DNA of 20,551 nucleotides from positions 1 through 20,551 of the IMG/VR virus record IMGVR_UViG_3300006922_000244; one strand, 5' to 3'. The translations under genes and the position numbers were made by a program. This stretch comes from a virus. A model generated the notes under the pieces. The model worked only from the letters and a program-made list of their open reading frames with translations, was not told the origin of the DNA and made no database searches. Positions 6,407-17,005 of this stretch are shown here, piece by piece (within the stretch, counting starts at the first letter, position 1; every line of letters starts with the position of its first letter).

Positions 6407-7126
6407 TTAGCTAACTGATTTTTCTTTTTTAGCTGATCCATCGTAGTCTGCACATGCGAGACCTCTTCTTGTAAGCATTGTTTTCACGCCTCTTACAGTT
6501 TTACCGATTTCTTCTGCTATTTCGTCTACAGTTAAAGACGCAATTTCTAAGTCAACAAAAGGGTCTTGTTTGTTAGAGCCTTTAGTTACTTTTTGCTTAG
6601 GAATAGAGCCGATGTCTCCACTTCTTAGCAAAGAAAGAGCTTTACCTCTGATAGAGTTTACACTTCTATCTAAAGCTTCTGCAATTTCTTCTACGAATGA
6701 ACCACCGTTTACCATATCGATAAATGTTGTTTCTTCGCTTTCAGAGTAAGTTCTAGGGGTTACAACTTTCTCTGCTGGTTTTACATGACCAGTAAGTTCC
6801 ATAGATAAGATTTTACCTTGGATTGATTTTGCTGAGAATGATCCGCCTTCGAAATTCTCTGCGATTTCAGCGTATGTATATGTACCGCTGTTGTTCTCTA
6901 CAAAGTTTTGTAGAGTTGCTTCTTGTTCATCAGAAAACGCTTTGCTTGCTGATGAGGAAGCTAATTCAACTTCAAAACCCATTTTTCTCAACTTTGAAGA
7001 TACACTTCTTGTTGATGTCTCTAAGTCTTCAGCTGCTTCTGCAACTTGAGCTTGTGAGACTGGTCCTTCACCGACGAAGTTAACTAGTTGATCAGTTCTC
7101 TCGTCTGTCCATTTTGGTAATGCCAT
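6407..7126 (-). CDS. four-repeat HTH (GcrA/SANT-like) DNA-binding protein
   Basis: 239 residues made of four related helical repeats: about 5-51 (KWTDERTDQL ... SVSSKLRKMGF), 64-112 (AFSDEQEATL ... SIQGKILSMEL), 124-168 (TYSESEETTF ... SIRGKALSLL) and 187-224 (QDPFVDLEIA ... GVKTMLTRRGL). Each has an aromatic/acidic start, a turn with an IAE core, and ends in a V/I-x2-KL-like recognition helix. The pattern resembles GcrA-type and Myb/SANT-like DNA-binding domains seen in single copy elsewhere in this window. Linkers are Ser/Lys-rich. It is likely to bind DNA at extended or repeated sites, as a regulator or architectural protein. It starts three bases after the ligase C-half gene, with AAGGA inside that gene's end, and is directly followed by a terminator. 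The exact family assignment is by eye. Confidence 0.75.
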   Translation of the reverse strand: MALPKWTDERTDQLVNFVGEGPVSQAQVAEAAEDLETSTRSVSSKLRKMGFEVELASSSASKAFSDEQEATLQNFVENNSGTYTYAEIAENFEGGSFSAKSIQGKILSMELTGHVKPAEKVVTPRTYSESEETTFIDMVNGGSFVEEIAEALDRSVNSIRGKALSLLRSGDIGSIPKQKVTKGSNKQDPFVDLEIASLTVDEIAEEIGKTVRGVKTMLTRRGLACADYDGSAKKEKSVS

Positions 7127-7128
7127 TT

Positions 7129-7881
7129 TTATATTTCCTTTAATAATTTTTTTATATTTGTTATTATCTTAACGCCTTTGTTTCTAGCATTGATAGTTTT
7201 AGAACTCTCAATACCACTCTCGTTAATCAGTATTGTAACGGCGTTAGTTACAGTACCTTTTACTGTGTAGCCAGCTTTCTCAAGCACTGCTAAAGCAGCT
7301 GACTTATTCGGATAACTACTAAGTTTACCTGTGATACAGACGACTCCTTTACTCTTCTCTTTTACACTTTTTTGTTTCGTCTTGAAAGAGAAAGGTAGTG
7401 TGTTGTATTCATTCGGATAAAACTCACATTGAATCCAATCAATTAAGTTTTGAGTAGCCTTTGGCCCTAAACCTGCTCGGTGACAACTATCCCAAGTAAT
7501 ACCTGAAATATCATCCACAACTGCACAGAGTTTAGAAGAGATTGACTTACCAACAAGTGGAATTCCAAATGCTGGTAGTAATTCTTCCAACCCAGATTCT
7601 GTAGACTTCTGTACTTCTAAATACAGTTTGTCAGCAATCTTTTCAGAATTCAGGCAGTCAGATATTTCTTCCCTCGATAAGGAGTAGAGATCGTGAAAAT
7701 CCTGAATCTGTAGTTTCTGAATGGTTGAGGGGCCAAGACCTTTTATTTTAAGGTGTTTGGCAAAGCCTTCCACCTTCTTGTCCCACTTAGCAGGACAATG
7801 GTCATTCAAGCAATACAAAATATCCTTGACAAGTTTTAGACTTGTATTACAACTTGGACATTCTGTGGGTATTGCTATCAT
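7129..7881 (-). CDS. ligB: NAD-dependent DNA ligase, C-terminal half (Zn finger, HhH, BRCT)
   Basis: 250 residues matching only the back half of bacterial LigA. The four-cysteine zinc finger is C8, C11, C24, C29 (CPSC and LNDHCPAK). Helix-hairpin-helix repeats follow (about 36-150, for example FAKHLKIKGLGPSTIQKL), and a BRCT domain occupies about 175-250 (GVVCITGKLSSYP). It lacks the adenylation and OB domains, which are encoded separately at 8496-9428. The two products presumably associate to form one nick-sealing enzyme; separately encoded NAD+ ligase subunits are known from phage T5. The transcript starts about 18 bases upstream from its own strong promoter, so it is made independently of the other half. 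Confidence 0.93.
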   Translation of the reverse strand: MIAIPTECPSCNTSLKLVKDILYCLNDHCPAKWDKKVEGFAKHLKIKGLGPSTIQKLQIQDFHDLYSLSREEISDCLNSEKIADKLYLEVQKSTESGLEELLPAFGIPLVGKSISSKLCAVVDDISGITWDSCHRAGLGPKATQNLIDWIQCEFYPNEYNTLPFSFKTKQKSVKEKSKGVVCITGKLSSYPNKSAALAVLEKAGYTVKGTVTNAVTILINESGIESSKTINARNKGVKIITNIKKLLKEI

Positions 7882-8299: not shown

Positions 8300-8499
8300 T
8301 AGAATATTTCTAAAGTAAAGTTTTCTGCACACTCTTCAGCGTACTGTTCAGTATGGCCTGTAATAACTCTGTCTTCTTTCCATATTTGGTTTTCAAACAT
8401 CCTAACTACATAACCATTCTTGTGGCTGTAAATTTCTGCTTTTCTATTTTTAGCTCGAAACTCATGTAATAAAGCTCCATCTATGATTTGTATACTCAT
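8299..8499 (-). CDS. small hypothetical protein, 66 aa, between ligase halves
   Basis: 66 residues starting MSIQIIDGALLHEFRA. It overlaps the ligase N-half stop as ATGA (8499-8496) and ends in TAATG at the GIY-YIG start. The sequence has alternating hydrophobic strands (YSHKNGYVVRMFENQIWKE) and a C-terminal helix with two cysteines' worth of ECAENF-like character, suggesting a small alpha/beta fold. It has no signal peptide or membrane segment. I do not recognise a function. Tight coupling on both sides argues it is a real gene. Confidence 0.75.
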   Translation of the reverse strand: MSIQIIDGALLHEFRAKNRKAEIYSHKNGYVVRMFENQIWKEDRVITGHTEQYAEECAENFTLEIF

Positions 8500-9428
8500 C
8501 CTATCCTCTGTACAATTTGTGGTATTATCTTACCTGCTCTAATTACTTCTACATAGCACCCAATCTCTAAGTTAAGTGCTTCTATAATAGCTTTATTATG
8601 CAGACTTGCTCTACTAACCAATGCATCTTCTATCATTACTGGCTCTAGAATTGCAACTGGAGATACTGCACCTGATTTACCTACTTGCCATTCTACATCT
8701 AATAATGTAGTAACGACTCCCGGCTCTCTTTTCTTCAGAGCGTATGCTCCTCTAGGGTGGTGACTAGTAAATCCTAACTCTTCAAACTGTTTATTACTGT
8801 TTACTCGCATGACTAGTCCATCTTGAGGATATTCCTCAGCTTGATCAGCTATTGATATAACAGTATCGAATCCTAGTGATTGTATATAATCCAAATCAGT
8901 CTCATAGTTTTCTGTAGGAGATACATTGATGCCGTATGCAATGAACCTTATGTCTCGAGTCATAAACTCATCAACACTTTTAAGGTTCAATGCTCCAGCA
9001 GCATAGTTTCTTGCGTTTGGTATGGTCTTTGGGGAGACTACCTCTCCTGTTATCTGCATAGGAGCAGTTACAGGAAAGGAGGTAGGTAACTTCTTAGACA
9101 TTAGTCTAGTGATATCTAATCCTTGTTTTCCATCTCCCCTTGTAAGCACTTTCTGTACTTTACCATCTGCAATTAATATACTTATCGCAGCTCCATCAAA
9201 CTTAGGTGTAACTACAGTACACGGAAACGCAGGTTTATCTTCTCCTTCCCATACTTTTTGCAGGGAAAACATTGGATATAAATGCGGGAACCGTTTTTCT
9301 GAGACATCAGAGTACCCAACATCCTCGATGTTTGCTAGGTTAAACAAATGGTCATATATCTCATCTGACATAATGGGAGAGCCTTTGTAATACTCTTCTG
9401 ATGCTTTTCTAACTAAATCTGAAATCAT
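8496..9428 (-). CDS. ligA: NAD-dependent DNA ligase, N-terminal half (adenylation + OB)
   Basis: 310 residues equal to the front half of bacterial LigA. Domain Ia is present in part (EEYYKGSPIMSDEIYDHLF, NAD binding). The nucleotidyltransferase motif I is TPKFDGAA with catalytic K76; TRGDGKQGLDIT (97-107), GEV with E129, NARNYAAGALNLK (138-150), QDGLVMRVN (202-210) and YALKKRE (K232) follow. The OB fold begins near 243 and ends RAGKIIPQI. It adenylates itself with NAD+ but lacks the zinc finger, HhH and BRCT parts, which are encoded at 7129-7881. It starts two bases after the stop of the preceding small gene and is followed by two small genes before the other half, in a different transcription unit. 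Confidence 0.95.
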   Translation of the reverse strand: MISDLVRKASEEYYKGSPIMSDEIYDHLFNLANIEDVGYSDVSEKRFPHLYPMFSLQKVWEGEDKPAFPCTVVTPKFDGAAISILIADGKVQKVLTRGDGKQGLDITRLMSKKLPTSFPVTAPMQITGEVVSPKTIPNARNYAAGALNLKSVDEFMTRDIRFIAYGINVSPTENYETDLDYIQSLGFDTVISIADQAEEYPQDGLVMRVNSNKQFEELGFTSHHPRGAYALKKREPGVVTTLLDVEWQVGKSGAVSPVAILEPVMIEDALVSRASLHNKAIIEALNLEIGCYVEVIRAGKIIPQIVQRIG

Positions 9429-9706: not shown

Positions 9707-9730
9707 ACTTCCTTTTAAAATCATAAGTAT

Positions 9731-15878: not shown

Positions 15879-16039
15879 TGTTGTCTCCTTTTCAGTAAGC
15901 TTGCATCTTGGTTAAGTTTGCCCCTTTCGGTAGCATTAATTCCCTAGTTCTAAAACTGAATGTTCAAAGATGCAGAAAGAACCTGTTTTATTGATTGAAC
16001 TATACCATCCCATATCCCATAGTGCGAAATTCACACTAC
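15879..16039 (-). promoter_or_regulatory. 161-base structured leader of hsp20, possible RNA control element
   Basis: The predicted transcript starts near 16039 and reaches ATG 15878, far longer than the 0-18 base leaders of other promoters here. A near-perfect hairpin (arms 16032-16038 and 16020-16026) sits at the very 5' end. Two inverted eight-base arms, 15967-15974 and 15902-15909, could close a larger domain. Two mini-ORFs exist: one of 6 codons starting at 16020, and one of 14 codons starting MLPKGANLTKM after AGGGA and ending 16 bases before the hsp20 start. Bacterial hsp20 genes are often controlled by RNA thermometers, so that is a reasonable idea, not a demonstration. Confidence 0.45.
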
Positions 16040-16045
16040 AGATAT

Positions 16046-16085
16046 ATTATACTAAATTCTGAAGTTGATGTCAAGAATTATTTTT
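16046..16085 (-). promoter_or_regulatory. strong sigma70 promoter of hsp20
   Basis: On the minus strand TTGACA (16074-16069), 17 bases, TATAAT (16051-16046), preceded by the box AAAAATAATTC. It overlaps the end of the 48-residue membrane-protein gene. Confidence 0.93.
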
Positions 16086-16224
16086 CATCATCTTCAAGGA
16101 CAAGTAGCCCTTTATCTTCGAGAACATCAATGGTGTGTCGTATGAAGTGGTACTTACATAAAAAGTAAGTGCCTACATTCGATAATACTAACCATATCAG
16201 TACTGCTAAATCATTATTATTCAT
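16078..16224 (-). CDS. small membrane protein, 48 aa
   Basis: I place the start at ATG 16224 (MNNNDLAVLIWLVLSNVGTY), which has AAGGGA upstream and a leader of about 18 bases; any farther start would lie beyond the promoter. One membrane helix covers about 6-22, followed by CKYHFIRHTIDVLEDKGLLV and an acidic end. It stands alone between its own promoter and the hsp20 promoter, so it is a monocistronic gene or read-through partner. Function not recognised. Confidence 0.72.
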   Translation of the reverse strand: MNNNDLAVLIWLVLSNVGTYFLCKYHFIRHTIDVLEDKGLLVLEDDEK

Positions 16225-16248: not shown

Positions 16249-16289
16249 ATTATACAACTTTTCTAACGCCAGGTCAAGAACTATATTTA
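16249..16289 (-). promoter_or_regulatory. sigma70 promoter, minus arm of the divergent pair
   Basis: On the minus strand TTGACC (16277-16272), 17 bases, TATAAT (16254-16249), preceded by AAATATAGTTC. It faces away from the plus-strand promoter at 16309; the two -35 boxes are 31 bases apart. Predicted leader about 18 bases. Confidence 0.9.
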
Positions 16290-16296
16290 ACATGGT

Positions 16297-16337
16297 CAAA
16301 AATAATACTTGACACAAGGTTCTATTTTTAGTATAAT
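16297..16337 (+). promoter_or_regulatory. sigma70 promoter, plus arm of the divergent pair, leaderless
   Basis: TTGACA (16309-16314), 17 bases, TATAAT (16332-16337), preceded by AAAAATAATAC, the same type of box as on the minus-strand promoters. Six bases separate the -10 from the ATG at 16344, so the predicted start is the start codon itself. Confidence 0.92.
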
Positions 16338-16343
16338 ATGGAT

Positions 16344-16517
16344 ATGAACAAAAGATGGACTCAAGAAGATAAACAGTATTTGCGGGATAACTATAAGCTA
16401 ATTCCCACTACAGAGATTTGCAAGAAACTTCAGGTTACTGAGAGTCAACTCTATTCGCAGATACACTACTTACGAAAGAGAGGTTGGGCTTTCAATCACA
16501 GGAGAGCAAATGCCTAG
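16344..16517 (+). CDS. single-domain GcrA/SANT-like HTH regulator, 57 aa
   Basis: The product begins MNKRWTQEDKQYLRDNYKLI and continues PTTEICKKLQVTESQLYSQIHYLRKRGW: one compact trihelical domain of the WT-x-E type found repeatedly in this window. A basic end (HRRANA) follows. There is no ribosome binding site because the ATG coincides with the predicted transcription start. The last codons contain the AGGAG of the bS21 gene, which it overlaps by eight bases. A DNA-binding protein under a divergent promoter pair is a good candidate for an autoregulator, which is inference. Confidence 0.82.
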   Translation: MNKRWTQEDKQYLRDNYKLIPTTEICKKLQVTESQLYSQIHYLRKRGWAFNHRRANA

Positions 16518-16737
16518 TATATACTGTAAAAATATGCCAGCAGAAAAGGCAATTCGTATTTTTCGTAAGAAATGCGAGGCCGCTCAAATCAAAGAACGCT
16601 GTCGCGAACTCGAATTCTATGAGAAACCAACAGTGAAACGCAAACGCAAGAAAAACGAGCAAAGGAAGAGACATCTTAAATCATTAAATCAAATCCCATC
16701 CGACTATCGAAAGAGAAATAAATTTTCTCGGAGATAA
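16510..16737 (+). CDS. rpsU: ribosomal protein bS21, phage-encoded
   Basis: 75 residues. AEKAIRIFRKKCEAAQIKER corresponds to the first helix of bS21 (A-x-R-x-FKR-x-C-E-x-AG), and CRELEFYEKPTVKRKRKKNE to the family signature (R-x-x-EFYEKPTxxRKRKK), followed by a basic helix. bS21 binds the small ribosomal subunit near the anti-Shine-Dalgarno region and favours translation initiation. Phage copies are known from marine viruses and may replace the host protein on ribosomes. It has AGGAG five bases before the ATG and is co-transcribed with the HTH gene, in the only plus-strand operon of the window. Confidence 0.95.
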   Translation: MPSIYCKNMPAEKAIRIFRKKCEAAQIKERCRELEFYEKPTVKRKRKKNEQRKRHLKSLNQIPSDYRKRNKFSRR

Positions 16738-16790
16738 GACGTTCCCAGAAGTCACGCACAATGACCCTACCAAAAATAAAACTTGTAATC

Positions 16791-16818
16791 TTGATAAAAG
16801 TGTGATAAAATATATACT
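16791..16818 (+). promoter_or_regulatory. candidate plus-strand promoter after bS21
   Basis: TTGATA (16791-16796), 16 bases, TATACT (16813-16818), five of six matches at each hexamer. The preceding TAATC resembles the end of the shared upstream box. There is no gene behind it, so it may drive a non-coding RNA. Confidence 0.5.
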
Positions 16819-16824
16819 ATAAAT

Positions 16825-17005
16825 TAGAATAATTACTCAATTCATTCTTCTCTCTCCTAATCGAGACCTACTCCGATTATCTTAAAACAAGGCTCTTCGA
16901 GCGTAAGCGAAGAAGAGACCTGAGATGAACTGAGTGAAAGGTCGAGAGAGAAAATACAATCTAATTCAACAACGAAAAAGACCGACTAAAAGCTAATCGG
17001 TCTTT
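16825..17005 (+). ncRNA. candidate structured small RNA, about 180 bases
   Basis: There is no open reading frame of note in this stretch. Arms TTCTCTCTC (16848-16856) and GAGAGAGAA (16944-16952) pair perfectly. Directly inside, AGGTC (16939-16943) can pair with GACCT at 16865-16869 or, alternatively, with GACCT at 16917-16921. A hairpin capped by a GTAA tetraloop lies at 16893-16917 (CTCTTC against GAAGAG). The 16977-17005 hairpin could end the RNA. The two alternative partners for AGGTC suggest a possible switch. Transcription direction is inferred from the promoter at 16791; a transcript from the bS21 promoter could also include it. Confidence 0.4.
16977..17005 (-). terminator. intrinsic terminator of the accessory operon
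   Basis: Nine-base perfect arms AAAGACCGA (16977-16985) and TCGGTCTTT (16997-17005). On the minus strand the hairpin runs into TTTTTCG, fitting termination of the 20059-17054 operon. On the plus strand only three U follow, so it could work weakly in both directions. Confidence 0.88.

Follow-up and report, generated by a model that had tools for sequence, protein, structure and literature searches.

Genes for ribosomal protein bS21 are widespread in aquatic viruses, which raises the question of why phages carry them. The window analyzed here, a 20.5-kb IMG/VR fragment of a T5-like phage taken over its full 20,551 nucleotides, poses this question in a specific form: nearly all of its genes lie on the minus strand, and its sole plus-strand coding island consists of a small HTH gene and a bS21 gene (Table 1). 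The initial annotation had described this island as a coupled pair, and that description stands, with a 57-aa ORF preceding a protein that exceeds the curated Pfam cut-off for bS21. The reading that we favor, and to which we give an even chance of being correct, is that they belong to a host-takeover cassette of uncultured T5-like phages, comprising a leaderless HTH regulator, a bS21 that is swapped into host ribosomes, and a structured RNA. The fixed association of bS21 with one HTH gene, a predicted leaderless transcript, and a covarying RNA would provide concrete partners for the role of phage bS21.

Assignment of the window to T5-like phages follows from a D6-type DnaB-like helicase, a D5-like regulator, and a two-piece ligase; no tRNAs were detected across it. 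The bS21 gene has Hsp20, lysozyme, and replication genes as its neighbors, and the divergently transcribed small gene that flanks the cassette is kept in close relatives only. Phages carrying the cassette are uncultured and mostly marine. One T5-like contig with the HTH-bS21 pair (L288; NZIJ01000061.1) was binned in a Halieaceae MAG, which is a weak hint of a gammaproteobacterial host.

Table 1. Features of the window and of the HTH-bS21 cassette
Feature	Position	Strand	Remarks
DNA polymerase-like ORF	runs past left end of window		named from translation
DnaB-like helicase (T5-type, D6)	in window		~30% identity to Vibrio T5-like phages
D5-like regulator, full-length	6407-7126		phrog_323, E 2e-47; gene separate from the 57-aa HTH
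Two ligase-like ORFs	7129-7881 and 8496-9428		recognized from translations alone
Lysozyme and Hsp20 genes	in window		neighbors of bS21
48-aa protein	16078-16224	-	hydrophobic N-terminus; SD leader; divergent flank
Divergent sigma-70-type promoter, TTGACC-N17-TATAAT	16277-16249 (-35 16277-16272, -10 16254-16249)	-	predicted to drive the small minus-strand gene
Cassette promoter, TTGACA-N17-TATAAT	16309-16337 (-35 16309-16314, -10 16332-16337)	+	predicted start ~16344, at the A of the HTH ATG
HTH protein, 57 aa	16344-16517	+	three-helix, D5-like/Myb-like; mRNA predicted leaderless
bS21 Shine-Dalgarno, AGGAG	16500-16504	+	within HTH gene; from sequence and alignment
Ribosomal protein bS21, 75 aa	16510-16737	+	PF01165, 48.8 bits against a cut-off of 27
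RNA promoter, TTGTAA-N17-TAAAAT	16783-16811	+	close relatives mostly TTGCAA-N17-TATAAT
Structured non-coding RNA gene, ~185 nt	16818-17005	+	own conserved promoter; long irregular hairpin
Covarying rod of the RNA	16846-16951	+	covariance model
RNA tip motif	16892-16915	+	invariant in window clade
Terminator-like hairpin of the RNA	16977-17005	+	

The HTH protein is predicted to fold into three helices (residues 7-16, 22-29, and 33-45; AF2 pLDDT 85) and aligns to positions 93-139 of the D5-like family profile phrog_323 (E 1e-7). It thereby shares part of the profile of the T5 D5-like DNA-binding proteins, but differs from them in consisting of a single 57-aa domain; it may act as a DNA-binding regulator. 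Comparison with the PDB recovered no significant fold match, matches in cultivated phages were weak only, and the single match in bacterial genomes is the phage-like contig in the Halieaceae MAG. The start was placed at 16344 rather than 16338 because the ATG at 16338 is missing in several relatives, whereas that at 16344 is invariant. In one related contig (3300050343_000135; L002/L015/L034) the HTH and several other genes appear frameshifted in a protein background otherwise very similar to that of the window, which suggests indel errors in the assembly.

The association of this gene with bS21 extends well beyond the window. Among 120 distinct HTH sequences from all loci, 114 are followed by bS21 on the same strand, 139-822 nt downstream, six are cut by contig ends, and none lacks it; some of these loci were recovered with bS21 or the RNA as query, yet the outcome is the same when the HTH is the only query, with bS21 downstream on the same strand for every HTH with enough sequence. 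The pairing is therefore far beyond chance, and the genetic coupling described in the initial annotation is conserved in all 114 cases with room. Nearly all of them represent one syntenic phage lineage, so that much of the linkage reflects shared ancestry. A second lineage (L208, 67 kb; L232/L235, 100 kb) nonetheless lacks recognizable synteny and shows the order HTH, ~143-aa protein, and a different bS21; in L288, a distant T5-like relative, the order is HTH, an 82-aa protein, and bS21. Intervening genes differ from locus to locus, but the order and strand of HTH and bS21 are never broken. The same annotation had proposed that freely varying neighbors of bS21 would speak against a functional pairing: the inserted neighbors do vary, while the HTH is constant. 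Nor is the fine structure of the junction general. The bS21 Shine-Dalgarno site was correctly placed inside the HTH gene of the window, where the two genes overlap by 8 nt, but gaps reach 80 nt in other phages (L021/L028) and extra genes intervene elsewhere. Two such insertions may be recorded in their own right: a cytochrome c gene in L119/L046 (PF00034, E 1e-10, CAACH motif), and, in many cassettes (e.g., L047 and L119), a conserved ~75-aa protein (FDMAWVxKFVQATxDxQxNxANDLxRLTRAxG) that matches no Pfam family above cut-off.

Two further features had no place in the initial annotation. One is the geometry of the cassette promoter: TATAAT-N6-ATG occurs in 104 of 107 homologous promoters while the N6 bases themselves vary, and at 34 distinct junctions read by eye this ATG opens the HTH frame. 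Such conservation leads us to predict that the HTH mRNA is leaderless. The same spacing occurs at two more window genes, at 9724 (-) and 13264 (-), which are likewise predicted to be leaderless and keep the geometry in some relatives. SD-like sites precede 30 of the 35 window genes examined, and three of the five without one sit 6-11 nt behind a -10 box. A leaderless start would free the gene at the head of the bS21 operon from reliance on SD pairing, and it is possible to see in this independence the purpose of the arrangement. Ribosomal protein bS21 is exchangeable, acts on SD-ASD pairing, and serves SD-led initiation (PMC12054373); ribosomes without bS1/bS21 favor leaderless mRNAs (PMC12186496).

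The other is a conserved structured RNA 3' of bS21. When the core motif of one group was used as a search pattern it recovered 42 contigs, with bS21 upstream in 39 of the 39 with room, and a covariance model built from ten sequences of that same group finds the RNA of the window clade at the homologous place (16846-16951, E 7e-4). In an alignment of 36 distinct sequences, both sides have changed in 28 of the 35 pairs, and 91.7% of cells are paired; the covariation score of 0.51, which is favored by an alignment partly fitted to structure, compares with 0.14 in shuffled and at most 0.11 in slid alignments and was reached by none of 500 shuffles. Compensatory changes thus exceed chance, with the same reservation about the partly structure-fitted alignment. 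A second model matches further HTH loci but gives no match in 59 control loci, which lack the HTH and come nearly all from other bS21 phages; about half of the searched HTH loci are missed by the model, and in most of those inspected a diverged but similar fold lies behind the same type of promoter. The RNA was matched by none of the Rfam 15 covariance models, the best scores falling far below gathering scores, and a known Rfam family was accordingly rejected as its identity; blastn recovered no counterpart in cultivated phages, and a search of bacterial genomes did not recover the exact motif. A 6S-like RNA was also considered and rejected, since Rfam gave no match and the covarying model shows no large bubble at its center. 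An earlier, sequence-driven model (R1) had recovered the terminal stem alone and matched one of 52 sources, and was superseded by R2/R3. On these comparisons, the RNA appears to define a new family among structured RNAs of phages.

Several alternatives bear on how these elements are related. It is possible, if somewhat unlikely in our estimation, that the HTH and bS21 genes are neighbors by inheritance only, the former being a promoter-proximal regulator unrelated to bS21 and the latter a late, translation-boosting passenger. Whole-region synteny within the lineage would be expected on such an account, as would the 37 of 137 distinct bS21 sequences (from bS21 phages of other lineages) that lack this HTH and the different bS21 neighbors in published bS21 phages; the recurrence of the order in the non-syntenic lineage of L208/L232, the failure of any insertion to break order or strand, and the presence of bS21 beside every HTH with enough sequence argue against it. 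Alternatively, the divergent region might be a switch, of lysogeny type or autoregulatory, in which the HTH binds an operator lying between the two promoters. The HTH is the first gene, and the promoters do diverge from a near-palindromic, AT-rich center; both are present, back to back as had been noted from the outset, and each has a spacer of 17. Their boxes are nevertheless not special. The arrangement AAAATAGTTC-TTGACA-N17-TATAAT occurs at about eight places in the window, and AAAATAGTTC or a close variant precedes the -35 of most strong window promoters; two such promoters facing away from one another produce an apparent palindrome. The divergent boxes are two ordinary promoters of the phage, at which an HTH operator is not demonstrated, and a special operator at 16278-16308, where the initial annotation had suggested testing HTH binding, is not supported because the upstream box is common to most strong promoters of the window. 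The window also showed no integrase or CI-like gene, and we consider a switch of this kind very doubtful. The shared boxes are compatible with a more general binding of the HTH protein to phage promoters, which may occur.

The RNA invites other readings. It could be a functional partner of bS21, bound by it outside the ribosome or serving to titrate or deliver it, in the manner of OLE RNA, a structured RNA that is bound by bS21 (PMC12054373). The tight co-occurrence of RNA and bS21 would fit such a partnership, but the window rod, as read from its sequence, has no CCUCC anti-SD mimic, the RNA varies more than bS21 does, and no similar RNA was recognized in L208, L232, or L288; we hold a partnership to be unlikely. 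An antisense role toward the HTH-bS21 mRNA is highly improbable: the RNA lies directly downstream of bS21, and its CUCUCCU in the window is complementary to the bS21 SD region AGGAGAG, but across 36 loci its duplexes with the bS21 start region are energetically no stronger than those formed with shuffled targets (mean z -0.3), and pairing with the bS21 start was rejected on this ground. A bolder extension, which we regard as quite unlikely, is a dedicated phage RNP in which bS21 and the rod RNA jointly target the host's ribosomes or its polymerase; the level would be set by the HTH, whose leaderless mRNA would have no need of bS21-dependent SD pairing. If true, the phage would possess a viral system of three parts that reprograms translation in the host.

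The host-takeover cassette, the reading favored above, would operate as follows. Host sigma-70 polymerase would express the cassette. From the consensus promoter, transcription would begin on the A of the HTH ATG, giving a leaderless mRNA on which HTH translation would proceed independently of SD/anti-SD pairing. The HTH protein would then probably regulate its own promoter, other phage promoters, or both, while bS21 would be made from the same mRNA by way of its own SD. As a 30S protein that binds loosely and can be exchanged, phage bS21 could enter host ribosomes and there favor initiation on SD-led phage mRNAs. A separate promoter would supply the ~185-nt rod-shaped RNA belonging to the cassette, for which bS21, the 30S subunit, and RNA polymerase are candidate partners. 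Takeover of translation by the window bS21 is plausible by analogy with a phage bS21 that joins E. coli ribosomes (PMC6375957). Two published observations tell against the reading: in E. coli the phage bS21 tested brought translation down to ~5% (PMC6375957), and the bS21 of other phages is expressed late (PMC9723584). The cassette suggests a compact unit for tuning host protein synthesis.

Phage-borne bS21 is, in itself, already known. Pelagibacter phage HTVC008M likewise encodes an S21 domain that is presumed to join host ribosomes, but is a myovirus (Mizuno et al. 2019, PMC6375957), whereas the window phage is T5-like and links its bS21 with both an HTH gene and a structured RNA. The Bacteroidetes bS21 phages resemble it in having a conserved bS21 context, and in a survey of 900 phages some had Hsp20 (n=127) or lysozyme (n=29) close to bS21, as in the window (Chen et al. 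2022, PMC9723584). In those phages, as there described, bS21 lies among structural genes, amid a terminase, capsid, and protease cluster, and is expressed late (PMC9723584); the window bS21 lies outside any such cluster, behind a consensus sigma-70 promoter and beside Hsp20, lysis, and replication genes. OLE RNP offers a further likeness, in that bS21 is associated with a structured non-coding RNA, but its link is biochemical and its RNA is ~600 nt long with an anti-SD mimic (PMC12054373), while the link in the window is genetic only and the RNA, at ~185 nt, lacks both that mimic and a match in Rfam. Neither the HTH partner, the leaderless geometry, nor the RNA is mentioned in the available text of PMC6375957 and PMC9723584; Rfam and, within the same portions, published bS21-phage work yielded neither the fixed three-part arrangement nor its RNA family.

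A conserved leader region lies on the opposite strand. The hsp20 gene has its own promoter (16074, -) and a 5' leader of ~190 nt (15879-16074, -), for which Rfam gave no match. In an alignment of 11 window-clade sequences this leader is strongly conserved and hairpin-rich, with an invariant GTTCTTTCTGCATCT block, and it is possibly a separate cis-acting RNA.
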